The position numbers and the translations under genes are program-made. A stretch of 36,736 nt of DNA. Origin: Bacteroidota bacterium. GTDB lineage: Bacteria > Bacteroidota > Bacteroidia > Chitinophagales > Saprospiraceae. Position 1 is the stretch's first letter, and every line of letters starts with the position of its first letter. Where the stretch lies: positions 1 through 36,736 of the forward strand of contig PZPC01000052.1 in NCBI GenBank assembly GCA_003045895.1. The letters are read 5' to 3'. Shown piece after piece: positions 2,002 to 33,999 of the stretch. The notes below the pieces were generated by a model. That model was given only the letters and a program-made list of their open reading frames with translations, was not told the origin of the DNA and did not search any database.

Positions 2002-2787
2002 ATGACCTGGATTAAAAGAATTGGTGTCTTCCTCTTGCTGCTCTACCTGGCGGCCTGTGTGGGCTTGTTTTTCGGACAAGAACAGCTCATCTTTCACCCC
2101 CAAAAACTGCCAGCCAGCTATGTCTTCGGGGAGGGCGAAGAAGCCTGGGTACCCGTGTCTGACGGGGTACGGCTCAACGGCCTGTGGTTGCGCAGCCAGG
2201 CACCCCGGGGCGTCATTTTATACTGGCACGGCAACGTGGGCTCCAACCGGCGCTGCCTGCACCAGGCCGAAAACCTCTTCGACCTGGGTTACGACATTTT
2301 TATGCCCGACTACCGCGGCTACGGCAAGAGCGGTGGCGAAATATTTTCGGAAGACCAACTGTTTGCCGACGCCCAAAAAGTGTACACCTGGCTGTTGCAG
2401 TATTACCGCGAAGACCAGATCGTGGTGGTCGGTTATTCCCTGGGTAGTGGCGTGTCCACCTACCTGGCCAGCCACAACCACCCGCAGCGCCTGTGCCTGG
2501 TGGCGCCCTACCGCAGCATGACGGCCATGAAAGACCTGCTTGTTCCTTTCGTGCCTTCTTTCCTGCTCAAATACCCGCTGCGCAACGAGGTGGCGTTGCC
2601 GCAGGCCAACTGCCCGGTTTCGCTTTTCCACGGCACCCAGGACGAACTCATCCCCTACGCGCATTCCGTGGTGCTGCAAAGCAAACAACCGACTAAAAGC
2701 CGCCTGATCAGCCTCGGCGAAACCGGTCACCGGGGCGCTATCTTTAGCCAGATTCTCCGGCGGGAGCTCGCTGCTATGCTGAGATAA
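2002..2787 (+). CDS. membrane-anchored alpha/beta hydrolase
   Basis: This 261-residue serine hydrolase resembles the ABHD13/BEM46-type alpha/beta hydrolases. An N-terminal hydrophobic stretch (about 6-24) is likely an uncleaved anchor or signal. HGN at 76-78 supplies the oxyanion region. The nucleophile elbow GYSLG gives Ser146, and Asp214 (GTQDELIP) and His243 (TGHRG) complete the triad in the expected order and spacing. Family members are esterases, thioesterases or peptidases, and the substrate cannot be read from sequence. It follows the cytochrome/monooxygenase gene by 51 bases in the same direction and may be co-transcribed. The start is the first in-frame ATG, directly before the hydrophobic segment. 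Confidence 0.85.
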   Translation: MTWIKRIGVFLLLLYLAACVGLFFGQEQLIFHPQKLPASYVFGEGEEAWVPVSDGVRLNGLWLRSQAPRGVILYWHGNVGSNRRCLHQAENLFDLGYDIFMPDYRGYGKSGGEIFSEDQLFADAQKVYTWLLQYYREDQIVVVGYSLGSGVSTYLASHNHPQRLCLVAPYRSMTAMKDLLVPFVPSFLLKYPLRNEVALPQANCPVSLFHGTQDELIPYAHSVVLQSKQPTKSRLISLGETGHRGAIFSQILRRELAAMLR

Positions 2788-2797
2788 CCAATTTTCG

Positions 2798-2805
2798 TAT
2801 TTTTG
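2798..2805 (+). promoter_or_regulatory. candidate -7 promoter element (TATTTTTG) of the DPP IV gene
   Basis: This is an exact match to the Bacteroidota -7 consensus TAnnTTTG, 30 bases before the ATG at 2835. No clear -33 TTTG lies at the usual distance, so support comes from the -7 element and its position only. Confidence 0.45.
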
Positions 2806-2834
2806 CTTTTCGCAAAAAAATATCCTTCTTTCTT

Positions 2835-5069
2835 ATGAATAAAATATGCTTTACGCTGGGCATCTGCCTGATGCTCCTGGCGCCCGTTTTCGGCCAAAAG
2901 GCCATCACGCTGGAAAACATCTGGCAAGACTATACTTTTATCCCCGAAAGTGTGCCGGGCTTCACCTTCATGAATGATGGCCAGCACTATACCCGCCTGG
3001 AAAATAATAAAATCCAAAAATACGACCTCCGCACGGGTAAGCTGGTTGCCACCCTGCTTGATGCGGGGACCCTGCCGGACATCAGTGAAATTGGAGCCTA
3101 CCGCTTCACGGAAGACGAGTCTAAAATTGTCCTCAGCAACAATGCGGAGTCCATCTACCGCCATTCTTTTACGGCCAATTTCTTCGTTTACGACCGCGAA
3201 AGCAACCAGCTAACCGCCATCTTCCCCGGTGGAGCAGGCATCCGGCTGGCCGCCCTCAATCCGCAGGGCACCAAGGCCGCGTTCGTACAAGCCAACAACC
3301 TGTACATCAAAGACCTGAACACCGGTAAGATCGAACCGGTCACTACCGACGGCGAAATCAACAAGATTATCAACGGCGCTACCGACTGGGTGTACGAAGA
3401 AGAATTTGGCGACGACAACGGCTTCTTCTGGTCGCCCGACGGCCAGCAACTGGCCTACTACCGCTTCGACGAGTCGGCGGTACGCGAATTCACCCTCACC
3501 AATTACCACGACGGGAGCTACCCCGACTACGTGACCTTCAAGTACCCCAAAGTAGGGGAAAAGAACAGCGAGGTGAGTATCCACATCTACGACCTGGCCT
3601 CGGGTAAGACCCGGGAAGTAGCGAAAACCGGACCGGAGTGGGAATATTTTCCCCGCATCAAATGGACGCGCAAGGCGGGTGAGCTGTGCGTGTTCTTCAT
3701 GAACCGCCACCAGAGTAAGCTGGAATTGCGCCTGCTGAATTTCGCGGGTACCAGCCGCACGCTCCTCAGCGAAAGCAGCCCCTACTACATCGACATCCAC
3801 GACAACCTTTACTTCCTGAAAACCAAGGACCAGTTTATCTGGACGAGCGAACTGGCCGGCTGGAACCACGCCTACCTCTACAACATGGACGGCAGCCTGG
3901 CCGAGCAACTCACCACCGGCCAGTGGGACATTACGCAGTTCTACGGCCTCGACGAAGCCAACGGAACCATCTATTACCAGGCCGCCAAACAGAATCCCGC
4001 GCAGCGCGAGATCTACAGCCAGGAACTCAAAGGACGGGGCGGCAGCAAAATGCTGGCCAGCGAAGCAGGCACCAACAAGGCACAGTTTAGCAGCACGTTC
4101 GACTATTTTGTGCTGACGTTTTCTACTCAAAATACCCCCCCGACCTATACCGTCCTCGACCGCCAGAGCAAACGGGTAAGGCTTATCGAAGAGAACGAAG
4201 ACCTGCGCAGCCTGCAACAGACGTACGGCGTACAACCCGTAACATTTTTCAACTTTAAAACCTCCGAAGACATCCAGTTGAACGGCTACATGATCAAGCC
4301 GCCGAATTTCAACGAGAAGATGGTCTACCCCGTGCTCATGTACGTGTACGGCGGGCCGGGTAGCCAGACGGTCAACAACGCCTGGGGGGGGCAGAACTAC
4401 TGGTGGTTCCAGATGCTGGCCCAACAGGGTTACATCATCGTCAGTGTCGACAACCGCGGCACCGGCGCGCGCGGGGAGCAGTTCAAAAAGATGACCTACC
4501 AACGCCTCGGCTACTACGAAACCATCGACCAAACCGAAGCGGCGAAATACCTGGGGCGCCTGGGCTACGTCGACGCCCGCCGCATCGGTATTTTCGGCTG
4601 GAGCTACGGCGGTTACATGGCCAGTTCCTGCATCCTCAAGAGCAACGACGTCTTCAAAGCCGCCATTGCCGTGGCGCCGGTCACCAACTGGAAGTGGTAC
4701 GACTCCATCTACACGGAACGCTACATGCGCACCGTTGAGGAAAATGAGGAAGGCTACCGCCAGCATTCGCCGGTTTACTTCGCCGATCAGCTCAAGGGGA
4801 GCTACTTGCTCGTGCACGGCATGGGCGACGACAATGTCCATTTTCAGAACACCGCCGAAATGGCCAACGCCCTGATCATGGCCAACAAGCAGTTTGACAC
4901 CTATTTTTATCCCAACCGCAACCACGGTATCTCCGGCGGCCCCACCCGCCTGCACCTCTACACCCGCATGACCGACTTCCTCAACGAAAAGTTGAAAGCC
5001 AAACCCAATGTGACAGGTCGGCCCGCTGGCTTGCTGCGTGCCGAGCCCATGCAGAAGACCAGGGAATAA
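2835..5069 (+). CDS. dipeptidyl-peptidase IV family serine peptidase (S9B)
   Basis: The 744-residue protein has a signal peptide (1-20) and the DPP IV layout. An N-terminal beta-propeller carries DWVYEEEF at 184-191, whose Glu189/Glu190 match the pair that binds the substrate amino terminus. A C-terminal alpha/beta hydrolase domain carries Ser590 (GWSYGG), Asp665 (GDDNVHF) and His697 (NRNHGI). The enzyme is expected to remove Xaa-Pro or Xaa-Ala dipeptides from peptides in the periplasm, supporting peptide scavenging. Length is normal for the family. The C-terminus runs about 25 residues past the usual end with a basic, low-complexity tail. The gene contains a run of eight G at 4384-4391 inside a Trp-Gly-Gly segment, a possible slippage spot. 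Confidence 0.93.
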   Translation: MNKICFTLGICLMLLAPVFGQKAITLENIWQDYTFIPESVPGFTFMNDGQHYTRLENNKIQKYDLRTGKLVATLLDAGTLPDISEIGAYRFTEDESKIVLSNNAESIYRHSFTANFFVYDRESNQLTAIFPGGAGIRLAALNPQGTKAAFVQANNLYIKDLNTGKIEPVTTDGEINKIINGATDWVYEEEFGDDNGFFWSPDGQQLAYYRFDESAVREFTLTNYHDGSYPDYVTFKYPKVGEKNSEVSIHIYDLASGKTREVAKTGPEWEYFPRIKWTRKAGELCVFFMNRHQSKLELRLLNFAGTSRTLLSESSPYYIDIHDNLYFLKTKDQFIWTSELAGWNHAYLYNMDGSLAEQLTTGQWDITQFYGLDEANGTIYYQAAKQNPAQREIYSQELKGRGGSKMLASEAGTNKAQFSSTFDYFVLTFSTQNTPPTYTVLDRQSKRVRLIEENEDLRSLQQTYGVQPVTFFNFKTSEDIQLNGYMIKPPNFNEKMVYPVLMYVYGGPGSQTVNNAWGGQNYWWFQMLAQQGYIIVSVDNRGTGARGEQFKKMTYQRLGYYETIDQTEAAKYLGRLGYVDARRIGIFGWSYGGYMASSCILKSNDVFKAAIAVAPVTNWKWYDSIYTERYMRTVEENEEGYRQHSPVYFADQLKGSYLLVHGMGDDNVHFQNTAEMANALIMANKQFDTYFYPNRNHGISGGPTRLHLYTRMTDFLNEKLKAKPNVTGRPAGLLRAEPMQKTRE

Positions 5070-5140
5070 TTGTACCGTGCAATGCTGGCCCAGCCCGGAA
5101 GGAACTAATAGCCGGTACTCGTGTTTAAATAATGAAAAGC

Positions 5141-5191
5141 GGTTTCGCGGGCTTTGATCCGCAGCAACGGCAGACCAGCGCCCGCGAAACC
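5141..5191 (+). repeat. perfect 12-bp inverted repeat just upstream of smpB
   Basis: The arms GGTTTCGCGGGC (5141-5152) and GCCCGCGAAACC (5180-5191) are perfectly complementary, with a 27-base spacer that contains a small CCG/CGG inner pairing. The right arm ends 18 bases before the smpB ATG. No T-run follows, so it is not a classical terminator of the upstream peptidase gene. An mRNA leader hairpin or a protein-binding palindrome are both possible. Confidence 0.6.
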
Positions 5192-5209
5192 TACAACCAC
5201 CCAGAGCAG

Positions 5210-5677
5210 ATGGCAGAAAAAAAGAAACATACCTTAGAGATCGTCAATCGCAGAGCCACCTTCGAGTTCCAGTTTCTGGACGTGGTGGAAGCGGGTGTCA
5301 TGCTGACGGGGACGGAGATCAAATCGATTCGCAAGGGCAACGTCAACCTGCGCGATGCCTATTGCCTGTTCAAAAACAATGAGCTGTACCTCTACAGCCT
5401 TTATATTGCCGAATACGACCACGGCAACCAGTTTAACCACGAAGAAAGACGGACGCGCAAACTGCTGCTCCGCAAGGGAGAACTGCGCAAGCTGGAGAAA
5501 AAAGTCAAGGAAAAAGGACTGACCATCGTCCCCCACAAGCTCTACATCAATGACCGCGGGTTTGTTAAGATAGAAATTGCCCTGGCGCAGGGTAAGAAGA
5601 CTTTTGACAAACGGGATTCGATCAAGCAGAAAGACCTGAAGCGGGATATGGACCGGATAAAGAAGATAAAATTCTAG
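5210..5677 (+). CDS. smpB: SsrA-binding protein SmpB
   Basis: This 155-residue protein is the tmRNA partner in trans-translation. It binds the tRNA-like part of SsrA RNA, delivers it to stalled ribosomes and so allows tagging of the unfinished peptide. Diagnostic segments are the N-terminal NRRA, the GTEIKSIR motif, the EYDHGN loop and the basic C-terminal tail with DKRD and alternating Lys/Arg, which enters the mRNA channel. An in-frame ATG at 5132 would add 26 residues that do not resemble the family and would cross the perfect inverted repeat, so I take the ATG at 5210 (MAEKKKHT). The gene converges on panD with 10 bases between the stop codons. The tmRNA gene itself is not in this window. 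Confidence 0.95.
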   Translation: MAEKKKHTLEIVNRRATFEFQFLDVVEAGVMLTGTEIKSIRKGNVNLRDAYCLFKNNELYLYSLYIAEYDHGNQFNHEERRTRKLLLRKGELRKLEKKVKEKGLTIVPHKLYINDRGFVKIEIALAQGKKTFDKRDSIKQKDLKRDMDRIKKIKF

Positions 5678-5687
5678 GAGTCAGCGC

Positions 5688-6035
5688 CTAGACGAGCTTA
5701 TTTCCCTCGCCGGGAAATACGACGTGTGGCTGGTAGGCTTTGGCTTCTGCGGGTGTCATCCAACCGTAAGCAATGATGATGACCACATCGCCCACCTGTA
5801 CCCGGCGCGCAGCGGCACCGTTGAGGCAGATCATTCCCGAGCCCCGTTCGCCGGTGATGACGTAGGTCTCAAAGCGTTCGCCGTTGTTGTTGTTTACAAT
5901 TTGCACCCGCTCGCCTTCCTGTAGGTTAGCCGCATCCAGCAGGTCTTCATCAATGGTGATGCTGCCCACGTAGTTGAGGTTGGCTTCGGTGACGACCGCC
6001 CGGTGTATTTTGGATTTAAATCGTTGAATTAGCAT
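5688..6035 (-). CDS. panD: aspartate 1-decarboxylase PanD
   Basis: This 115-residue pyruvoyl enzyme converts L-aspartate to beta-alanine for pantothenate and coenzyme A synthesis in the cytoplasm. Self-cleavage occurs between Gly24 and Ser25 in YVGSITID, turning Ser25 into the pyruvoyl cofactor. Lys9, Arg54, Tyr58 and Asn72 occupy the expected active-site positions, and the length is typical. It lies downstream of panC on the same strand with a 158-base gap that contains its own -7 element, so the two genes may be transcribed separately. Together they supply the beta-alanine and ligase steps of vitamin B5 synthesis; panB is not in view. Confidence 0.96.
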
Positions 6036-9752: not shown

Positions 9753-11591
9753 ATGTGCGGAATTGTAGCCTATCTAGGGGCTCGCAATGCTTATCCTGTA
9801 CTCATTAAGGGACTGCAAAGACTCGAGTACCGTGGATACGATAGTGCTGGTGTAGCACTAATGAATGGCGACCTCAATATTTATAAAAGAAAAGGAAAAG
9901 TTCAGGACCTGATTGATTTTGCCGCCGAGCAGAATCATGCGGGTCATCTGGGGATTGGTCACACCCGCTGGGCAACCCATGGTGTTCCGGACAACATCAA
10001 TGCCCACCCTCACCGATCGGGTAACGGACGACTAGCCCTGGTTCACAACGGTATCATTGAAAATTACGTACTGCTCAAGACCGCCCTCGAAAAAGAAGGC
10101 CACGTTTTTCAGAGCCAGACAGATACAGAGGTGCTCACCCACCTGATTGAAGCCATTCAGGAACGAGACCAACTCCCGCTCGAAGAGGCTGTTCGCATTG
10201 CCCTCACCCGGGTGACCGGCGCTTATGCCATTGTTGTTATTGACCAACAAGATCCCACCAAAATTGTGGCCGCCCGTAAAGCCAGCCCCCTGGTAGTTGG
10301 TTTGGGTAAAGACGAATTCTTCCTGGCTTCTGACGCGACCCCCATTATTGAATACACCAACCGGGTGGTTTACCTGGACGACGAACAGATCGCCGTGATC
10401 AGTCTGGCTGACGGTCTCCAACTGCGGTCGATCGGCAACGAGGTTCAGACGCCCTTCGTGCACCAGCTGGATATGAACATCGAAGAGCTGGAAAAGGGCG
10501 GTTATGACTTCTTCATGCTCAAGGAAATCAACGAACAACCCCAAACGGTAGCCGACTGTATGCGCGGCCGGCTCAACGCCGAAGAAGGCTGGATTCGGCT
10601 GGGTGGACTCGAAGAATTTGCCAACCGCGTACTGCAGGCCGACCGCTTTATTATTGCCGCCTGTGGAACCTCCTGGCACGCGGGGCTCATCGCCGAGTAC
10701 CTGTTCGAAGACCTGGCCCGCATTCCGGTAGAAGTGGAATACGCCTCGGAATTGCGTTACCGCAACCCGATTATCCGCGAAAAAGACCTGGTCATCGCGA
10801 TTTCTCAGTCTGGTGAAACAGCCGATACCCTGGCGGCCCTGGAACTCGCCAAACAAAAAGGCGCCATGCTTTTTGGCATTGTCAACTCCGTAGGTTCTTC
10901 CATTGCCCGCATCACCGACGCCGGGTGCTACATTCACGCTGGCCCCGAAATTGGGGTGGCCTCAACCAAGGCCTTCACCGGCCAGGTGAGTCTGCTGACA
11001 ATGATGGCGCTGAGTCTGGCACAAAAGAAGGGGACCATCTCCAATTCCTATTTTCGGCAATTGGTCAGTGAATTGGCCAATATCCCCGATAAGATTCGAC
11101 AGGTATTGGAAAAGGATGAGCAAATCCGCTATATTGCGGGCGAAATTAAAGACCACCCCAATGCGTTATACCTGGGAAGGGGCTATAATTTCCCCGTAGC
11201 GCTGGAAGGTGCCCTCAAATTGAAAGAAATTTCCTACATCCACGCCGAAGGTTACCCGGCAGCTGAAATGAAACACGGGCCCATTGCCCTGATTGACGAA
11301 AATATGCCGGTCATTGTCATTACGACCAACCGGAGCGCTTACGATAAAATCGTAAGCAATATTCAAGAAGTGAAAGCCCGCAAGGGTTTTGTTATTGCAA
11401 TTGTTAACGAAGGAGATACGATAATCAGTAAAATGGCCGATCACGTCATTGAAATTCCTCAAACTGAGGAGCCTTTCACCCCACTCTTATCCGTAATTCC
11501 ACTACAGTTATTGTCTTACCATATCGCCTTACTGCGTGGTTGCAACGTGGATCAGCCCCGCAACCTGGCCAAGTCGGTAACTGTGGAATAA
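9753..11591 (+). CDS. glmS: glutamine--fructose-6-phosphate aminotransferase GlmS
   Basis: This 612-residue enzyme makes glucosamine-6-phosphate from fructose-6-phosphate and glutamine, the entry step to UDP-GlcNAc. Cys2 directly after the initiator Met is the N-terminal glutaminase nucleophile. HTRWATHG and HNGIIENY mark the glutaminase domain. Two SIS sugar-isomerase domains follow, with GTSWHAGL and SQSGETADT in the first, and the C-terminus PRNLAKSVTVE is canonical. Length is normal and the protein looks complete. The DUF4290 gene begins 13 bases after the stop, so they are likely co-transcribed. The 107-base upstream gap shows no glmS ribozyme core that I can recognise. Confidence 0.97.
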   Translation: MCGIVAYLGARNAYPVLIKGLQRLEYRGYDSAGVALMNGDLNIYKRKGKVQDLIDFAAEQNHAGHLGIGHTRWATHGVPDNINAHPHRSGNGRLALVHNGIIENYVLLKTALEKEGHVFQSQTDTEVLTHLIEAIQERDQLPLEEAVRIALTRVTGAYAIVVIDQQDPTKIVAARKASPLVVGLGKDEFFLASDATPIIEYTNRVVYLDDEQIAVISLADGLQLRSIGNEVQTPFVHQLDMNIEELEKGGYDFFMLKEINEQPQTVADCMRGRLNAEEGWIRLGGLEEFANRVLQADRFIIAACGTSWHAGLIAEYLFEDLARIPVEVEYASELRYRNPIIREKDLVIAISQSGETADTLAALELAKQKGAMLFGIVNSVGSSIARITDAGCYIHAGPEIGVASTKAFTGQVSLLTMMALSLAQKKGTISNSYFRQLVSELANIPDKIRQVLEKDEQIRYIAGEIKDHPNALYLGRGYNFPVALEGALKLKEISYIHAEGYPAAEMKHGPIALIDENMPVIVITTNRSAYDKIVSNIQEVKARKGFVIAIVNEGDTIISKMADHVIEIPQTEEPFTPLLSVIPLQLLSYHIALLRGCNVDQPRNLAKSVTVE

Positions 11592-11604
11592 ATAAATAAA
11601 AATT

Positions 11605-12330
11605 ATGATAGACTGGAATATGACCTACAACTCGGCGAAGGATACCCTTATTATCCCCGAATACGGCAGGCATGTGCAGTTGTTGGTCGACCACGCCAAA
11701 ACCATTGAAGATCCGGTGCTGCGCCAACGCCTGGCCGAACGCATCATCAGGCTGATGATGCAGATGGTTCCGCAAAACCGCAACATCGAGGATTACCGGG
11801 GCAAGCTCTGGCGCCACCTGTTTCGCATTGCGAAAAACGAACTCAACGTATCACCTCCGGATGACATCAAAATGCCAACCGAGGTGAGTGGCAAGTTCAC
11901 GCCCGACCACGTCGGTTATCCGGCGTCGGAAGCGCGCTACCGCCACTATGGGCACAATGTGCAAACCATGATCAAGAAGGCGATTGCCATGGAAGAAGGT
12001 CCGAAGCGCGATGGTTTCGTTGCAGCGATCGCTGCCTACATGAAACTCGCCTACAAAACCTGGAACCGGGAGCACTACGTGAGTGACGACGTCATTAAAG
12101 CCGACCTCAAGACCCTGTCCAACGGCGCCCTGGTCCTTCCCGACGAACAGTCGCTGGAAAACCTGGTCAGCAATACGGCTCCTCGCCGCAGTGCCACCGG
12201 TGGCCGCAGCAGCGGAGGATCTGCCAAGCGTTCTTCGGGCAGCAGTTATGGAAGTAGCAGCAACCGCGGAGGAGGAGGCCGCCGCAACAACAACAATACC
12301 AGCGGAGGCCGCCGGAGTTATAAGAAATGA
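11605..12330 (+). CDS. DUF4290 family protein with basic Gly/Ser/Arg/Asn-rich tail
   Basis: The 241-residue protein has a predicted helical, soluble core (about 1-185, with YGRHVQLLVDHA and YGHNVQTMIKKA). From about residue 188 a disordered tail rich in Gly, Ser, Arg and Asn follows, with NRGGGGRR and GGRR patterns that resemble RGG-type nucleic-acid-binding tails. No signal peptide or membrane segment is present, so it is cytoplasmic. The core matches DUF4290, a Bacteroidota family of unknown function. It starts 13 bases after glmS and precedes murA, so it is embedded in a UDP-GlcNAc to peptidoglycan cluster. A regulatory or scaffolding role there is a guess. A strong hairpin separates it from murA. 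Confidence 0.8.
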   Translation: MIDWNMTYNSAKDTLIIPEYGRHVQLLVDHAKTIEDPVLRQRLAERIIRLMMQMVPQNRNIEDYRGKLWRHLFRIAKNELNVSPPDDIKMPTEVSGKFTPDHVGYPASEARYRHYGHNVQTMIKKAIAMEEGPKRDGFVAAIAAYMKLAYKTWNREHYVSDDVIKADLKTLSNGALVLPDEQSLENLVSNTAPRRSATGGRSSGGSAKRSSGSSYGSSSNRGGGGRRNNNNTSGGRRSYKK

Positions 12331-12408
12331 GCTCTTCAGGTTGAAATCCAGTAATACATCCAGCTCTTTTGGTCCAGGGTATACCTGCGGTTTCAGCTGC
12401 TTTTTACA

Positions 12409-12449
12409 ACTAGACTTGTTCTGCCTTCGTGTTGCAGAACAAGTCTAGT
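12409..12449 (+). terminator. perfect 16-bp stem hairpin between the DUF4290 gene and murA
   Basis: ACTAGACTTGTTCTGC (12409-12424) pairs perfectly with GCAGAACAAGTCTAGT (12434-12449) around a 9-base loop, followed by AATTTTAAAA. The stem is very stable but the T-run is weak. It could terminate or attenuate transcription of the glmS-DUF4290 unit. It ends 17 bases before the murA ATG, so it may also affect murA translation. Confidence 0.65.
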
Positions 12450-12466
12450 AATTTTAAAACACAAGT

Positions 12467-13789
12467 ATGCAAACATCCGGGACCTTCACCATTGAAGGCG
12501 GCCACCAACTCCAGGGAGAGATTGTTCCGCAAGGCGCAAAAAACGAAGCATTACAGGTTTTGTGTGCAGTTTTACTGACTTCCGAACCGGTTACCATCAG
12601 TAATTTACCCGCGATCCTGGATGTGGAACTGCTCATCAACCTGCTGCGTGGGCTGGGGGTAGCGGTCACCCAACTGACTCCTCATAGCTACCGATTCATC
12701 GCCAAAGACGTTGACCTGGACTACGTCCTGACCCAGGATTTTATCCGCGATGCCAGCCGCATTCGCGGTTCGGTCATGCTCATCGGGCCATTGCTGGCGC
12801 GTTTTGGGCAAGCTTCTCTCCCCAAGCCCGGTGGGGATAAGATTGGTCGGCGCCGACTGGATACCCATTTGTTGGGCCTGGAGCAGCTCGGGGGGCATTT
12901 TTCTTTCAATGCCGAGCGCAACCTCTATACCTTTAAAGCCCAGGGACGCCTACAGGGCTGTTACATCCACATGGACGAAATCTCCGTCACCGGAACGGCC
13001 AATGTCGTCATGTCTGCCGTTCTTGCCGAGGGCGAAACCATCCTCTACAATGCAGCCTGCGAACCCTACGTGCAACAACTCTGCCGGATGCTGCAACAGA
13101 TGGGGGCCAAAATCGAGGGCATTGGTTCCAACCGATTGATCATTAATGGTGTTGAAACCTTGTCTGGAGCGGAACACCGTTTGCTGCCCGACATGATCGA
13201 AATAGGTAGCTTCATCGGGCTGGCCGCGATGACCCAGTCCGAAATTACCATCAAAGACGCCCGGATTGACCAATTGGGTATTATCCCCAATGTCTTCCGC
13301 CGCCTGGGCATCGAAATTATTGAGCGCGGTGATGATCTTTACCTGCCGGCTCAGGAAGAATTTGAAATCCAAACCTTCATCGACGGGTCGATCCTGACGA
13401 TCTATGACGCCCCCTGGCCGGGCTTCACCCCCGACCTGATGAGCGTGGTGCTGGTAGCCGCAACGCAGTCGAAAGGCAGTGTGCTGGTGCACCAGAAAAT
13501 GTTTGAAAGCCGCTTGTTCTTCGTCGATAAACTTATCGACATGGGGGCCCAAATTATCCTCTGCGATCCCCACCGGGCAACGGTGATCGGCCTCAACCGG
13601 CGGTTTCAGCTGCGCGGCATCGAAATGACTTCCCCCGATATCCGCGCAGGCGTGGCTCTGCTGATTGCAGCGCTCTCGGCCAAAGGCACCAGCCGGATTC
13701 ACAATATCAACCAAATTGACCGGGGCTACGAACGCATCGACGAACGCCTGCGGGCGCTTGGCGCAAAAATTTCCCGTTCAGAAGAATAA
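12467..13789 (+). CDS. murA: UDP-N-acetylglucosamine 1-carboxyvinyltransferase MurA (Asp-type active site)
   Basis: This 440-residue enzyme transfers enolpyruvate from PEP to UDP-GlcNAc, the first committed step of peptidoglycan synthesis in the cytoplasm. GAKNEAL supplies Lys25 (Lys22 in E. coli). PWPGF followed by Asp323 gives the catalytic Asp. The active-site loop reads PGGDKIGRRRLDTH at 121-134, so the usual Cys115 is Asp124. That Cys-to-Asp exchange is known in other bacteria to keep activity while preventing fosfomycin alkylation, so intrinsic fosfomycin resistance is expected. The gene follows DUF4290 by 136 bases, a gap filled largely by a perfect hairpin, and is followed by a DUF4286 gene. 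Confidence 0.96.
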   Translation: MQTSGTFTIEGGHQLQGEIVPQGAKNEALQVLCAVLLTSEPVTISNLPAILDVELLINLLRGLGVAVTQLTPHSYRFIAKDVDLDYVLTQDFIRDASRIRGSVMLIGPLLARFGQASLPKPGGDKIGRRRLDTHLLGLEQLGGHFSFNAERNLYTFKAQGRLQGCYIHMDEISVTGTANVVMSAVLAEGETILYNAACEPYVQQLCRMLQQMGAKIEGIGSNRLIINGVETLSGAEHRLLPDMIEIGSFIGLAAMTQSEITIKDARIDQLGIIPNVFRRLGIEIIERGDDLYLPAQEEFEIQTFIDGSILTIYDAPWPGFTPDLMSVVLVAATQSKGSVLVHQKMFESRLFFVDKLIDMGAQIILCDPHRATVIGLNRRFQLRGIEMTSPDIRAGVALLIAALSAKGTSRIHNINQIDRGYERIDERLRALGAKISRSEE

Positions 13790-21788: not shown

Positions 21789-24700
21789 TCACTGGCCTCC
21801 CGTACTGGTGGTATCCGTAGGACTGTTCATACCACTGTCTTCGTCAAAGCCGCCGGTATCGCTGGGGGGTTCGTCGGTTTCCACTTCCGGGGGGCAGTTA
21901 TCCGGGCGATTTTCCTGCAGGTAGATCGTGATCTTTTGTCCCCGCATAATTTTAGCGCCGGGGCTGTAAGGCGGATCTTGCTTCCAGACATAGGCATCGG
22001 CCCGGTTGGAGACATCGCCAATGACATCGCCGATACTGAGATCCAGGCCGGGTAACAGAAAACTTACTTCACTGAATCGCTTGCAGATCAACAAGGGGGT
22101 CCGCACAAAATCATCTTTGGATTTCGTAACGACGAATTCCAGCGTGCTGCCCTGCATTATTTTGATACCTCGCTTGAGGTCGGACGGCGAATATTTGCGC
22201 CCCTGGTAGTAAAAATGCAGGATGGTGCTATCGGCTAGTCGGGCATCAAAAACGCCCTCTTTCACCACTGTCCGGATGTGCAGTGGCCGGAGCTTTTGCC
22301 GGTAGCGGCTATAATCATCGGCGGCTTCTTCAAAGGAAGGGATGGGTACCTCCTTCGGCGGCCCGATAATCGTCAGGTAGATGGTGCGGTTCTTTTTGAT
22401 CCGCTTCAGCGGTTTGGGCTCCTGGTCGATGACGTCGCCCTGGGGAATATCCAGGGTGAATGGTGCTTCGTTGACACTTACCTTGAAGCCCCGGCTCCGT
22501 GCTTTTTGGGTAGCCTTATCGATCGTAAGCTGCTTGTAGTTTTCCACCTGTACCGAGTTGCCGTGGTTGGTGTACAGGTTGAGTCCTATGTTCATCAAGA
22601 AAAAAGCGAGCAGGAGTACCCCCAGCATAGCCGCGATATTTTTCCAAATGTACCGGGATCGCAATAGGCTGACCCAGGAGTTGCCTTGCTGGCCACCAGG
22701 GGTGGGTGGCGTAAAACTTTGCGGTGGCTGCGGTGCTGCGGGGGGAGTAAATTCCATTTTAATTGCTGTTGTTAAAGGTCGGGTTCCGGGCGCGGCGCTG
22801 GCCGCTACTTCCGGGCGACTGACCGGTACCTGCTGTTCGTTGATGGAACCTGCCGCTTTTTTAGCCTGGCGCTGGAACCCGAAGACAAGAATCTGCCGGA
22901 TAAATTCTGCCGGTTTATACCCCGCCAGGGCAGCCTGGTGGAAAATGGCGGTAGCGGGCGTCATGCCGGGCAGGGAATTAATTTCGATGACCTGGGTTTC
23001 CACTTTGCCATTTGCCAGTATGCGTACGAAGGCATCGATCCGGCAGTAGCCTTCGACCTGAACCAGCCGTGCCGCCCGTTCCAGCGTTTGCTGAACCTGG
23101 GGTAAGATCTCCTCGTAGGAAAACCCTGCTACTGCCAGTCGGGCAGGCGTCAGGTTCTGCCCCTCACCCGCCAGGAATTTCTCTTCCAGGGAGAGGACTT
23201 CCCCGCTCGACAACGTTTCACTGGGTTCAAAGATCTCGTATTGCAGTTGCCCGCGCTCATCGTAATGGGTGAGCATGCCACCAGTAATTTCCAGAAAATG
23301 GATACCGTTCTCGCGGGTGATCAATTCTTCGAAAAGGATTTCTCCCTTGTCGGGAAACTCCTCTTTAATTTTGAGTTTGAGCAGGTGCCGTTGTTGGTCT
23401 TCCTCCTCCGGACGCATCCGAAAGATCAAGGCCGAATAAGCCCGCAACTGTTCCCGGTTGTGGATGACTTTAACGGCTGAACTACAGCCATCATCAACGG
23501 GTTTGGCAATGAGCGGATAGGCGAAACTTTGTTCGACCTTTTGGTAAAAGCGCTCCTCGTCGACTTTAAAATCCTGCTGCGTCAGCAGCAGTTGCCGGGC
23601 TACGGGCAAGCCGTGTAGCGCGAGGGTCTGGAGGGTGCGAAATTTATCGATGGTAATACTCGACGACTTAATGCCGGAACCATTGTACGGCAATTGCCGG
23701 GCTTCCAATGCCATTTGAATCTGTCCGTCTTCACCCGGACGCCCATGTAGGGCAATGAATACACCGTCTACTTTGTTGGGCAACCCATCATAGGTGAGTT
23801 CCTGGGGCGAAAAAATAACCCGCGCCGATGCATACTTCTGCGTAATGGGCGCACATTCCCGGCGAATTTGCTCCAGTAGGGGGTGGCTTTTCCAATGCGC
23901 GATCTTGTCTTTGATATCATCGGCATTGTCTTTCAACAACAAGTTCAGCGGGAGCTGGTAAAGCCGGTGCCGCTGGTCGGAGCCCGTCAGAAAAATGGGT
24001 ATGGGTTCGTAATCGACGGAGCTGGCTAATTTTTCGTAGATATTGCGCCCGCTCTCCACCGAGATGTGCCGCTCAAAGGAGTAGCCGCCCAGGATGATGC
24101 CAATGCGTTTTTTCTGGGCGCTGACCTGCTGCAGTTCCCCAATGCCCTGGTCGAGGGTACCCAGCAACTGGCGCCAGGGTGCTGCTTCCGGCCGCTCCTG
24201 CAAACGCTCCTGCAGCGAGACACGCAGGATGTAAGTCAGGAACTGGCTCGGATTGAGCCCAATTTCAGCGGCCTGGTGGAAAAAGAAGGAACTGGGCAGC
24301 ATGCCCGACGTCGTATTCGGGTCGTTGAGGAAAATGGTGCCTTCCGGCGAATAAAAACCGTCAATTCGGGCATACACCTGAAAAGCCAGTTTGGTAAACA
24401 AGCTTTCGCATTCCCGCCGAATGGCCTCAATTCCCGCAGTTGGCAGGTTGATGGGGGTCTCCTTGCGGGAAAGACCGGGCATGTATTTGGCGCGGTAGTC
24501 AAATACTTCGCCGCCTTTGATGATCTCCGTCGGTGGCAAAGCGATGGCCGAACCGTCTTCACTGCGCAAAACAATGCATGAAAACTCCTGCCCCCGGATA
24601 AAGGATTCCAGGATAACTGCTTCTTCCGAATGGTTGCTCTCCAAAATGAAGACCTGGCTGCGATGTTCGGCAGCGGCTGTTTCTGTATTAAAAAACCGGA

Positions 24701-25559
24701 GCAATTCCTCGGGATGAGTCAGCAGCACTTTTTTTTCACCCAGGACAACCTGCATAGGAAAACCCAGTCCGTCGCGAATGTCGGCCAGCAACTTTACAAA
24801 TTCTACCTTCTCAAACGGTGTGCGGTCCTGCCATTCGTCCATGGGGATAACTTCCCGGAAGAACGCCTGATTGATGGCTTCCTCGAAGCCTTCTAGACCA
24901 GCAGACTGGTCGATGATGCTTACGCCAATAGAAGAACCCTGGTTGGCGGGGCGGATAACGAGCGGCCAACCCATGGTGGTAGCTACCGACTCGTAGAGGT
25001 GGTATACATCAGCTTGCAGCCAGGCCGCCCGCTTCAGCACCTGAAACCGGGGGCAGGCAAAGCCTTTGTCCTGCATCAGCTCTTTTTGCCAGGCTTTGTC
25101 CATGCCCAGCTGGCTGGCACGTACACCACAACCCGTGTAGGGTATGCCGAGGTCCTGGAGTTGTTGCTGCAATTGGCCATCTTCCCCGTAAATGCCGTGC
25201 AGGGCCAGGAAGGCCACATCGATGTGTTCAGCGATCGCCGCCGGATTCACCGGCTGGCCAACCTGGGCCAGCAGTGCTAACTGATCGGCTTCGGTAGGCT
25301 GCGCAATGCTCTCGGCGTAGATCTGGAATCCATTAGGAGAAGAGGGCAACGCTGCTACCGGTGGATAGAAATCGCGGATGCTGCCCTTGTATACGTTGTG
25401 CCAGTCGAGAATGACCCAGTTGCGGTGGCTGTCAACAAAAATCGGGATAGGGGTAAACAACTGCTGATTGAGGTTGTCATAGACTGTACGCCCACCAGCG
25501 AAAGATATTTCTCGTTCCCGCGAAGGGCCGCCAAAAAAGATGCCAACTCTTATCTTCAT
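21789..25559 (-). CDS. tandem D-Ala-D-Ala ligase / transmembrane / PASTA fusion protein
   Basis: One 1256-residue frame joins two ATP-grasp D-alanine--D-alanine ligase modules (about 1-450 and 484-895), a Pro-rich linker (about 905-960), one membrane segment (973-992, preceded by Arg and Lys) and about three PASTA domains (1004-1066, 1071-1145, 1153-1215), ending in an acidic Ser/Thr tail. Module A keeps Glu15, the GSSIGV loop, Lys358-Tyr359 and Arg398/Asp400, but has Asp413-Pro-Asn where the family has Glu-x-Asn. Module B keeps Glu496, Lys794, Arg840/Asp842, Glu859-Ile-Asn861 and PGMT, but has CSSAV in the serine loop and Phe795 for Tyr. Normal Ddl enzymes are 300-370 residues with one module. 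The ligases should face the cytoplasm and the PASTA part the periplasm, where such domains usually bind peptidoglycan or its precursors. Confidence 0.9.
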   Translation of the reverse strand: MKIRVGIFFGGPSREREISFAGGRTVYDNLNQQLFTPIPIFVDSHRNWVILDWHNVYKGSIRDFYPPVAALPSSPNGFQIYAESIAQPTEADQLALLAQVGQPVNPAAIAEHIDVAFLALHGIYGEDGQLQQQLQDLGIPYTGCGVRASQLGMDKAWQKELMQDKGFACPRFQVLKRAAWLQADVYHLYESVATTMGWPLVIRPANQGSSIGVSIIDQSAGLEGFEEAINQAFFREVIPMDEWQDRTPFEKVEFVKLLADIRDGLGFPMQVVLGEKKVLLTHPEELLRFFNTETAAAEHRSQVFILESNHSEEAVILESFIRGQEFSCIVLRSEDGSAIALPPTEIIKGGEVFDYRAKYMPGLSRKETPINLPTAGIEAIRRECESLFTKLAFQVYARIDGFYSPEGTIFLNDPNTTSGMLPSSFFFHQAAEIGLNPSQFLTYILRVSLQERLQERPEAAPWRQLLGTLDQGIGELQQVSAQKKRIGIILGGYSFERHISVESGRNIYEKLASSVDYEPIPIFLTGSDQRHRLYQLPLNLLLKDNADDIKDKIAHWKSHPLLEQIRRECAPITQKYASARVIFSPQELTYDGLPNKVDGVFIALHGRPGEDGQIQMALEARQLPYNGSGIKSSSITIDKFRTLQTLALHGLPVARQLLLTQQDFKVDEERFYQKVEQSFAYPLIAKPVDDGCSSAVKVIHNREQLRAYSALIFRMRPEEEDQQRHLLKLKIKEEFPDKGEILFEELITRENGIHFLEITGGMLTHYDERGQLQYEIFEPSETLSSGEVLSLEEKFLAGEGQNLTPARLAVAGFSYEEILPQVQQTLERAARLVQVEGYCRIDAFVRILANGKVETQVIEINSLPGMTPATAIFHQAALAGYKPAEFIRQILVFGFQRQAKKAAGSINEQQVPVSRPEVAASAAPGTRPLTTAIKMEFTPPAAPQPPQSFTPPTPGGQQGNSWVSLLRSRYIWKNIAAMLGVLLLAFFLMNIGLNLYTNHGNSVQVENYKQLTIDKATQKARSRGFKVSVNEAPFTLDIPQGDVIDQEPKPLKRIKKNRTIYLTIIGPPKEVPIPSFEEAADDYSRYRQKLRPLHIRTVVKEGVFDARLADSTILHFYYQGRKYSPSDLKRGIKIMQGSTLEFVVTKSKDDFVRTPLLICKRFSEVSFLLPGLDLSIGDVIGDVSNRADAYVWKQDPPYSPGAKIMRGQKITIYLQENRPDNCPPEVETDEPPSDTGGFDEDSGMNSPTDTTSTGGQ

Positions 25560-25865
25560 AACATTGGAAAACTAATAAATATACTCCAGGTTTCGAGCGG
25601 CAAAGTTAGCTAATTTATCGGTTTACCCTTTTATTGAGATGATTGTAGTCGCCAGTTTTTCGAGTAAGCGTGGTTGCGGCACGCGTATCCGTAAGTAGCT
25701 CTGGTGGGATGAGTTCAAAATAAAATTCTTTTTGGGGGCTAAAATGTATTTTTTGTTATAATAAAAAATTTATTTCAATGATTAACAGACAATTAACCAA
25801 CGAATATTTCCAAATCTTCTTTTTTTTGAACATTTTTGCGGGCAGAAGATTAAAAGAAAGCAAAT
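25560..25865. other. 306-base divergent intergenic region (Ddl fusion / TraR-like genes)
   Basis: This very AT-rich gap separates two divergent genes. It contains a near-perfect 20-base palindrome at 25749-25768 (six T, GTTATAAT, six A). CATTTTTG at 25831-25838, one mismatch from the -7 consensus, lies 27 bases before the TraR-like ATG. No coding sequence is seen. Confidence 0.5.
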
Positions 25866-32028: not shown

Positions 32029-33999
32029 TTACTTCTTTTTGGCTTTTTTAGCTTTGGTTTCTTCTTCTTCTTTCTGCTCTCCCAGGCGTTCGATCAGTCG
32101 GCCGGAGATCCGGACAAAGTCCATTTCCGTGATAATGCCGATCAGTTCGTTGTTGGCCACTACGACGGGCAGGCACCCTACTTTGTTTTCGCGCATAATC
32201 CGCATGGCTTCGATGATCGTCGCCTTAGGGTTGATGGTCAGCGGGTTGGCGATCATGATTTCATTGGCCGAGACCACGTGCTCGCCCTTCACCATCTGGC
32301 CGTTGGTGAAGTAGCGCAACATAGAGCGGGCGGTGATGAGCCCGATGAGGTGGCCTTTGGTATCTTCCACGGGCATGTGGCGAATTTTGCGCCAGTCCAT
32401 GAGTTGGGCCACCATTTCAATTAAGTCGTCTTCGTGTACCGTGAAGAGGTCAGTTTCCATGAACTCTTCCACCGTCAGATTAGCGGGTCGATACTCCTTG
32501 AGGTCCGTTTGTTTTGGCATTTCCCAGGTATGTACAGGTTTACCTTCATTCTGCTGATCGAGCATGTAGGCGGTTAAAATACTTACAGCTTCGTCGCGAT
32601 TGACTTCTTTTTTGAGCTTGGTGAAAGCCCGCAGTTGCCAGCGGGCGCCGTTCATGTGGGCCTTGGCGCGCTCTTCAATAATCCCGAGGTACTTGTCAAT
32701 GTCAGCCGTCGCAATATTTTTGGATTTTAACCCTGCGCGTGCCAACGGCAGCAGTTCTTTGGTGATCAGGTCGCAGGCGTTGATCTTCTTGTCTTTGAAC
32801 CAGGTGAAATTGGTGTCGACACCGAACTTGGCGGCTTTGCCAAAGTTGTCGCGTACGTCTTCCCAGGAGATCTCTTCCCGGATATCGGGATACTGTTCAG
32901 CCATTCCCACCATTGCGCCCAGCCAGAAGGCAGCGTTGGCCATCTCGTCAACCACGGTAGGGCCGGCTGGTAACACGCGGTTTTCGATGCGCAGGTGCGG
33001 CTGGCCATTGTCGCTGATGCCGTAACAAGGGCGGTTCCAGCGGTAGACGGTTGAGTTGTGTACCAGCAAGGCCTTCAGGCGGGGCACTTTGTTGGCGAGG
33101 ACTTGCTCCATGCTGTCTTCCTCGATGTCCGACTCCAAAAGCACCCGGAAACGGGCAATGTCTTCTTTGTAGATTTCCATTAAGGATTTGTCCAGCCAGC
33201 CGGTGCCGAAGCTCACCCGTGGGCTGCGTTCGCGCAGGTGATCGTGGGTAGTACGCACATCGAGCGCCTGCTGAAACAAGGCAATGCGCGTTTCGTGCCA
33301 CAACCGTTTTCCGAAGACAATCGGTGAATTGGCCGCAATGGCTAAAACCGGTGCCGCCAGCGTTTGCGCGATGTTGTACATCTGCACAAAGGTAGCGGGG
33401 GTTACCTGCAGGTGCACCTGAAAACTGGTATTGCAGGCTTCCAACAGCGGCGAATCGTGTTTGACGAGCAGCTCGTCGATACCCGACAGGCGCAACTCGT
33501 AGGCGTTGCCGATGAGTTGCCGGTTGATGGCTTCCATCAGTGCGAAATAGCGCGGGCGGGGGGTGAGGTTACTCATGTCCAGGTCAAACTTCCGCAGTGT
33601 AGGCAGAATGCCCGTGAGCACCACGCCGGCGCCCATTTTGCGGGCCTGTTCCCGGATAATGCGCTGGTGTTCCCGATTTTCGGCCTCCATCTGGCTCAGG
33701 CAAGTACCCTTGAATTCGCGGGGCGTAAGGTTGGTCTCCAGGTTGAACCGCGCCAATTCAGCATCAGCCCAGGGGTATTTGCTGAGTTTGGCCAACACCT
33801 CGGGGCCTATATTGGCAGGTTTATACGTGTCTAAATCGACCAGGCACATCTCTTGCTCCGCACCAATCCGGATGGTATCCGTTTCAAACCAATCATTGCG
33901 CAACATGTACTCCAAGGCACGCACATCTTTGAATAGATGCCGTACAAAATTCTGCATACTCTGTTTATCCTCTGCCAACTTAACCAACTGTTCGCCCAT
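32029..33999 (-). CDS. GCS2-type carboxylate-amine ligase fused to two CBS domains
   Basis: The 656-residue cytoplasmic protein has an N-terminal glutamate-cysteine ligase family 2 domain (about 1-420). RIGAEQEM gives Glu48 and Glu50 in the metal/ATP site, and FNLETNLTP and SFQVHLQV are further family segments. The C-terminal part carries two CBS domains (about 517-575 and 588-642) and a Lys-rich tail. GCS2 enzymes such as YbdK join glutamate or another acid to an amine or cysteine using ATP. CBS pairs typically bind adenosine nucleotides and control the attached enzyme, so activity may respond to cellular energy state. Whether it makes gamma-glutamylcysteine is not shown. It converges on the small T9SS gene. 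Confidence 0.87.
   Translation of the reverse strand: MGEQLVKLAEDKQSMQNFVRHLFKDVRALEYMLRNDWFETDTIRIGAEQEMCLVDLDTYKPANIGPEVLAKLSKYPWADAELARFNLETNLTPREFKGTCLSQMEAENREHQRIIREQARKMGAGVVLTGILPTLRKFDLDMSNLTPRPRYFALMEAINRQLIGNAYELRLSGIDELLVKHDSPLLEACNTSFQVHLQVTPATFVQMYNIAQTLAAPVLAIAANSPIVFGKRLWHETRIALFQQALDVRTTHDHLRERSPRVSFGTGWLDKSLMEIYKEDIARFRVLLESDIEEDSMEQVLANKVPRLKALLVHNSTVYRWNRPCYGISDNGQPHLRIENRVLPAGPTVVDEMANAAFWLGAMVGMAEQYPDIREEISWEDVRDNFGKAAKFGVDTNFTWFKDKKINACDLITKELLPLARAGLKSKNIATADIDKYLGIIEERAKAHMNGARWQLRAFTKLKKEVNRDEAVSILTAYMLDQQNEGKPVHTWEMPKQTDLKEYRPANLTVEEFMETDLFTVHEDDLIEMVAQLMDWRKIRHMPVEDTKGHLIGLITARSMLRYFTNGQMVKGEHVVSANEIMIANPLTINPKATIIEAMRIMRENKVGCLPVVVANNELIGIITEMDFVRISGRLIERLGEQKEEEETKAKKAKKK

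Follow-up and report, generated by a model that had tools for sequence, protein, structure and literature searches.

A single open reading frame (ORF) from a member of the Saprospiraceae raises the question of whether D-Ala-D-Ala ligase (Ddl), the textbook single-module enzyme and a target of D-cycloserine, can operate as a two-module protein joined to a membrane segment, and what each module would contribute. The frame is located on contig PZPC01000052.1 of the Bacteroidota bacterium assembly GCA_003045895.1; the entire contig of 36,736 nucleotides was analysed and is referred to below as the window, while the assembly as a whole comprises 5.57 Mb and is 99.84% complete. The ORF begins with ATG, runs uninterrupted from 25559 to 21789 on the minus strand, and encodes 1256 amino acids, which according to the ORF call and Pfam are arranged as Ddl module A, Ddl module B, a linker, a transmembrane (TM) helix, and three PASTA units. 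An earlier reading made from the sequence alone had described such a Ddl–Ddl–TM–PASTA frame without stating the strand, and the architecture was borne out. Comparison with related genomes indicates that a group of Bacteroidota seems to make D-Ala-D-Ala with a two-module enzyme, each module having its own unusual active site.

In the Pfam scan, Dala_Dala_lig_N was matched in two stretches of the ORF, Dala_Dala_lig_C in four, and PASTA in one; the genome-level matches place both the N- and the C-terminal Ddl domains in each half of the frame. Module A (residues 1–480, 24120..25559) and module B (residues 481–905, 22845..24119; these and all other parts of the ORF lie on the minus strand) were delimited by Pfam, alignment, and AlphaFold2, the boundary of A being approximate as it was set by alignment. 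The AlphaFold2 model of residues 1–905, for which 66 sequences were used, had a pLDDT of 88.4 and a pTM of 0.89, and all 50 matches listed by Foldseek for this A+B model scored as a whole (of 525 with E ≤0.001) were Ddl or Van ligases. Scores against the curated family TIGR01205 (cut-off 245.65 bits) were 206.7 for A, 146.7 for B, and 344.1 for the whole protein, and the A and B modules of the Pontibacter tandem scored 223.4 and 158.1, respectively. Since the NCBI Ddl cut-offs are missed by each module singly and reached by the two summed, genome annotation hides the tandem nature of the protein. Much lower scores were obtained with the curated D-Ala-D-Lac/D-Ala-D-Ser ligase families NF000206 (105.2 for A and 75.8 for B, cut-off 550) and NF000207 (113.6 and 79.4, cut-off 520).

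To describe the active sites, the residue numbering of E. coli DdlB is used, and E15, K97, K144, K215, R255, D257, E270, N272, P275, and S281 are assigned their usual catalytic roles. For Ser150 and Tyr216, PMC7691350 describes conservation among the Ddls that produce only D-Ala-D-Ala, and PMC5996685 reports that in lactic acid bacteria Phe versus Tyr at the 216 position distinguishes depsipeptide from dipeptide ligases. Translation and alignment showed that module A of the window retains Glu15, Ser209 (S150), Tyr359 (Y216), and Ser424 (S281), with substitutions at Arg203 (K144), Asp413 (E270), and Ser418 (P275); its residues 413–418 form the motif DPNTTS (24306..24323), the canonical Ddl motif being ExNxxP. 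Module B retains Lys686 (K144), Glu859 (E270), Asn861, and Pro864, and is altered at Cys692 (S150), Phe795 (23175..23177), which replaces Tyr216 of the omega loop, and Thr870 (S281); the altered serine loop CSSA occupies residues 692–695 (23475..23486). The canonical catalytic set is thus incomplete in both modules, A being devoid of E270 and P275 (and of K144 in the window) and B of S150, Y216, and S281. The residues singled out by the sequence-only reading, Asp413-Pro-Asn and SGML in A and CSSAV and Phe795 in B, are correct.

These departures are properties of the two module classes rather than of a single genome. For each kind, signatures were counted over 112 distinct modules out of 126, including L089, whose A module is truncated at a contig end; the genome G099, split across two contigs, contributed one module each from L090 and L091. 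Among the A modules, E270D was found in 109, Pro at position 271 in 110, and P275S in 111, while the canonical residue was retained at E15 (110), S150 (109), Y216 (110), and S281 (110); position 144 was occupied by Arg in 72 modules and by Lys in 39. All B modules retained K144, N272, and P275, and 111 retained E270, whereas S150C was present in 109, G153A in 111, Y216F in 110, S281T in 108, and Cys or Ala instead of L282 in 108; a single gap at E15, in the B module of L119, arises from the cut position of an inserted stretch. The Phe at the Tyr216 position, a trait of D-Ala-D-Lac and D-Ala-D-Ser ligases, is therefore a feature of B and not of A. Positions E180, E187, K215, R255, D257, and N272 are near-invariant in both kinds of module. 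In the single-module Ddls, E15, K97, K144, S150, K215, Y216, R255, and P275 were invariant (88/88). The divergence of the two modules at catalytic positions, noted from the window alone, proved to be class-specific and near-fixed, so that a division of labour between them is a fair reading. The same near-fixation rules out that the window modules are decaying pseudo-modules.

Within the window, modules A and B share 30.6% identity across 405 positions. On a tree of 101 rows, all A modules formed one clade and all B modules another (100, starred in each case), with stems of 1.98 and 3.14, respectively; the two kinds likely originated from a single internal duplication, the direct joining of A and B on the tree being flagged as a possible long-branch attraction.

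The tandem appears to be the only Ddl of its genome. The Ddl_N model gave two matches in the assembly, both inside the window frame, no second Ddl was found elsewhere with this model, and the further Ddl_C matches in the genome had no accompanying Ddl_N match. In a sample of 100 genomes of the same family, a Ddl_N match was present in 96 and a two-module frame in 44, of which 28 frames were about 890–944 amino acids long and 16, the window included, 1140–1341 amino acids; besides these, two tandems were cut by contig ends and three were strongly decayed. When named genomes were scanned with a tandem profile, a two-module frame was present at each of the 80 best loci of 485 relatives, the carriers being Neolewinella, Lewinella, Saprospira, Aureispira, Phaeodactylibacter, Pontibacter, Rufibacter, Adhaeribacter, Rhodocytophaga, and several Bacteroidota metagenome-assembled genomes (MAGs). 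In all 18 named tandem isolates searched with Ddl_N, no other Ddl was found beyond the two matches of the tandem. An even sample of 158 genomes across the phylum contained only four with two Ddl_N matches: the window, G187 with a true tandem of 917 amino acids, and G157 and G161, each with two weak matches. Frequent in certain families, the tandem ligase is rare over the phylum as a whole. One family contains three kinds of Ddl, namely the tandem, a long single form (about 355–397 amino acids), and a short single form (about 317–349 amino acids), located in separate parts of the tree (L011–L040 and L093–L102), which suggests replacements of this essential gene. Two further frames, of 944 and 733 amino acids, contain one Ddl_N match each (G250:C55:57395-57778 and G211:C130:8067-8456) and could represent other Ddl fusions.

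A natural experiment on the role of the tandem is provided by relatives that possess an additional Ddl. A stand-alone Ddl and a tandem–PASTA frame occur together in 6 of the 100 family genomes: G020 (L054), G001 (L056), G018 (L057), G098 (L086), G055 (L087), and G073 (L088). The stand-alone copies are canonical, as E15, K97, K144, S150, Y216, and P275 are conserved in all 88 single Ddls. When lesions were scored at 14 sites of A and 15 sites of B, the tandem carried active-site lesions in all six of these genomes and in only one of the 41 complete tandems from genomes in which no stand-alone Ddl was detected (L089, L090, L091, and L092 are left out of this count); the hypergeometric probability of this split is 6.5e-7 assuming independent genomes, which these are not. 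Accordingly, exceptions to the signatures among complete modules were found almost only in genomes also having a stand-alone Ddl. In L054 the lesions lie mainly in A (S150P, K215R, D270G, and N272K), B showing only C150S and T281A; L056 and L057 have lesions in both modules, and L086–L088 nearly everywhere, although the alignment is rough at that distance. The sole exception among the 41, L069 (G059, 83% complete), has lost the loop residues of B and kept A. A side observation concerns G058, where a strongly diverged tandem-Ddl fragment, L092, is cut by the end of contig C311; its B module keeps the full B signature, and the genome also has an intact fused tandem.

The membrane part of the same proteins is unaffected. 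In phmmer searches, the six proteins scored 133–589 bits against window A and from 494 bits down to none against window B, compared with 593–694 and 518–624 bits in ten fused relatives with a complete PASTA part and no stand-alone Ddl, whereas against the window TM–PASTA part the ranges were 162–210 and 161–237 bits (the same-genus L043, with a TM–PASTA score of 438 bits, and the truncated L052, with 74, were left out). On the TM–PASTA tree the six are placed in several positions, requiring four changes, at least three of which are forced by starred branches, and the decay of the tandem has probably occurred more than once. Because lesions accompany a stand-alone Ddl while TM–PASTA is conserved, it can be argued that the two modules of the tandem together form a single D-Ala-D-Ala ligase and are both required. 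We read this as indicating that the job of the tandem would be that of canonical Ddl, that both modules would be needed when it is alone, and that TM–PASTA would have a further job of its own.

Downstream of module B, the frame continues with a Pro-rich linker without a Pfam match (residues 906–965, 22665..22844), seen in the translation, and a predicted membrane-spanning helix (residues 969–997, 22569..22655; hydrophobic core about 974–990), the helix being modelled by AlphaFold2 and its membrane role suggested by hydrophobicity. PASTA unit 1 (residues 1002–1065, 22365..22556) was detected by Pfam, AlphaFold2, and Foldseek, while PASTA-like units 2 (residues 1070–1146, 22122..22352) and 3 (residues 1151–1215, 21915..22109) fall under the Pfam threshold and are predicted from structure, in agreement with the "about 3" domains of the sequence-only reading. 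For residues 966–1256, AlphaFold2 gave one long N-terminal helix followed by the three units (pLDDT 91.5, pTM 0.66), and the best Foldseek matches were the PASTA-kinase ectodomains of PrkC and PknB (3py9, 3m9g, and 5e12). The fusion is not an assembly artefact or a frameshift join, which had been named as a ground for rejecting it together with its absence from close relatives: the same-genus genome G062, a single contig of 7.5 Mb, encodes it with 70% identity over 1249 aligned columns, and it is present in other relatives as well. Among 43 tandem frames of the family, 15, including the window, are fused to PASTA, 23 have a PASTA gene directly downstream, and 5 have none in view. The separate downstream genes lie on the same strand with gaps from −83 to +48, and in one case 371, and their proteins have a short predicted cytoplasmic segment. 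Among the best 80 loci of named genomes, the two genes are fused at 12 and separate at 48, and no PASTA gene lies on the stretch covered at the remaining 20. In 11 further genomes without PASTA in view, it was found elsewhere in 10 (four times as a shorter protein) and not in G011; the window genome itself has, in addition to the window frame, one other frame (748 amino acids) matching the PASTA model. A single change on the A+B tree accounts for the fusion (100, starred), and these sequence relationships identify it as a single joining of neighbouring genes, limited to one lineage.

The pairing itself extends further. A PASTA gene is adjacent to the single-module ddl in 18 of 19 loci of relatives at the order and class level, being located downstream in a family of the same order and in L232 and divergently oriented in families f5 and f3. 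It was adjacent in none of the 10 short single Ddl loci of the same family, and PASTA was present on 6 of the 30 stretches with a long single Ddl, where absence means little at loci of the L014–L040 type owing to their short length (2–3.4 kb). Judged by these gene neighbourhoods, the ddl–PASTA pairing is older than the fusion and wide, but not universal. At one such locus of a class relative, L217 (G173; 2644–5823), the PASTA gene is followed in the listed order by a gene whose product, judged by the start of its sequence, presumably resembles RluD, then by the single ddl, and then by one presumably resembling CoaD. The sequence-only reading had likened the protein to a PASTA kinase in which the kinase was replaced by ligases. 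One membrane helix followed by PASTA is indeed found, but replacement is not the history, since most tandem genomes encode PASTA in a gene of its own next to the tandem, and in related families it stands beside single ddl. An origin from a PASTA kinase is ruled out, as no Ser/Thr kinase family was found in the Pfam scan of the ORF and the PASTA gene adjoins ddl in relatives.

On balance we lean towards the explanation that the protein serves the cell as its D-Ala-D-Ala ligase, in a two-module form, both modules being needed while it is the only Ddl. Ordinary Ddl is a dimer, and two diverged modules in one chain would here replace the usual homodimer. With its Glu15/Ser150/Tyr216 set and Ser281 intact, module A would be the likelier site of D-Ala-D-Ala formation, consistent with its higher TIGR01205 score and with its retention in G059; module B, with a complete ATP/Mg set and altered serine and omega loops, could be a partner half, acting allosterically or contributing to the cycle. 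Several observations weigh against these proposals. With Asp replacing the Mg ligand E270 and Ser replacing P275, module A could be the weaker or a dead site; K144R is far from fixed in it, and L054 has lost the metal-site residues of A with B nearly intact. The A+B tree places only three of the six decayed tandems, for which one change suffices, and only the PASTA tree separates all six; most genomes are MAGs, so that an undetected stand-alone Ddl can be a gap (as in the incomplete G059), and G058, with its second tandem fragment, is among the 41. The contrasting losses in G059 and L054, together with the departure of each module at positions invariant in single Ddls, would also suit a protein in which one module, in either direction, is the whole enzyme and the other a pseudo-enzyme kept as a structural or regulatory half. 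We regard this as possible but somewhat unlikely, as tandem-only genomes keep the ATP, Mg, and phosphate-contact positions in both modules, beyond the needs of a scaffold. A different product of module B (D-Ala-D-Lac, D-Ala-D-Ser, or similar), alongside D-Ala-D-Ala from A, is suggested by the Phe at the Tyr216 position and the non-Ser residue at the Ser150 position of B when compared with the descriptions in PMC5996685 and PMC7691350. This appears improbable: B decays beside a canonical Ddl, clearly in five of six genomes, which makes a separate essential product unlikely; it lies far under the NCBI cut-offs for such ligases; and its changes at Leu282 and in the serine loop differ from those seen described for them. 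Of the sequence-only proposal that one module is a regulator or makes another product, the division of labour is a reasonable reading, while the second option is weakened by the deterioration of both modules beside a stand-alone Ddl (the changes in B of L054 being mild).

For the membrane part, the two-module ligase reading takes TM–PASTA to be an old genetic partner of ddl in the class, joined to it by one fusion in this lineage; it would most likely tether the ligase to sites of wall synthesis and possibly report the state of the wall. The sequence-only model went further, taking PASTA for a receptor through which ligase output is tuned, on the pattern of PASTA kinases; the fusion and the gene pairing across several families speak for it, as do three PASTA units on what is predicted to be the outer side. 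We consider it unlikely, however, given that most tandem genomes encode PASTA separately, in a protein predicted to have a short cytoplasmic segment, that it is not found beside the family's own short single Ddls, and that it is retained in proteins whose ligase modules are dead (L056, L057, and L086–L088), so that its function needs no ligase output. Finally, an ordinary fusion of two housekeeping genes with no new property and neutral residue changes would agree with a single event confined to one lineage, but it has little probability in view of near-fixed, class-specific catalytic changes in more than 100 modules that are lost when a stand-alone Ddl is present.

Two further wall-precursor genes are located at 9753–13789 on the plus strand of the window, encoding a GlmS-like protein and an EPSP_synthase-family protein resembling MurA, with a DUF4290 gene between them. 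A gene at 32029–33999 on the minus strand encodes a 656-amino-acid protein with a GCS2-type glutamate-cysteine ligase family domain and two CBS domains. No tRNA genes were found in the window. A scan for consensus promoters and terminators yielded 1 and 4 sites, respectively, against shuffled means of 3.5 and 5.5; the sequence TAACTTTG at 25601–25608 on the minus strand, about 40 bases upstream of the start codon of the tandem, fits TAnnTTTG, the −7 element of Bacteroidota promoters.

The open-access papers searched, with subscription papers mostly outside the search, described neither a tandem Ddl nor a Ddl–PASTA link; the matching papers concerned MurC, DltA, and PASTA proteins of streptococci rather than a fusion. 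If the proposed role is true, a group of Bacteroidota relies on a two-module Ddl with both sites non-canonical, and the textbook rules for Glu270, Tyr216, and Ser150 have naturally maintained exceptions. Those relatives that encode a stand-alone Ddl as well would then offer a ready natural knock-out series. The fusion provides direct evidence of a functional link between Ddl and the membrane PASTA protein whose gene lies beside ddl in several Bacteroidota families, and the role of this protein becomes testable.

Compared with known systems, both modules share with Ddl its N- and C-terminal domains (PF01820 and PF07478), but they are combined in one chain of about 900 residues, depart at catalytic positions, and singly fall below the cut-offs. 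Like the D-Ala-D-Lac ligases LmDdl2 and VanA and the D-Ala-D-Ser ligase VanG, module B carries Phe at the position of Tyr216 in dipeptide ligases, yet both modules score far under the curated cut-offs, and no vanH- or vanX-like genes were recognised among the window neighbours translated or scanned, no dedicated search being made. The single membrane helix followed by three PASTA units recalls the PASTA kinases PknB, PrkC, and StkP and the PASTA penicillin-binding proteins, from which the window protein differs in having no kinase or transpeptidase domain and in having gained its PASTA part from a neighbouring gene. Another Ddl fusion is known, the bifunctional MurC–Ddl protein (NF011171), but the window protein has no MurC part and scores 180.8 bits against a cut-off of 1015. 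The large subunit of carbamoyl-phosphate synthetase, not a Ddl, likewise joins in tandem, within one chain, two diverged ATP-grasp halves, which have different jobs and work together. By this analogy, one could tentatively envisage a clade-wide obligate heteromodular D-Ala-D-Ala ligase, in which one site carrying the D-Ala-binding set and another carrying the canonical ATP/Mg set must work together, so that a universal step of wall synthesis would run by a different mechanism, tied genetically, and here physically, to a trans-membrane PASTA protein.

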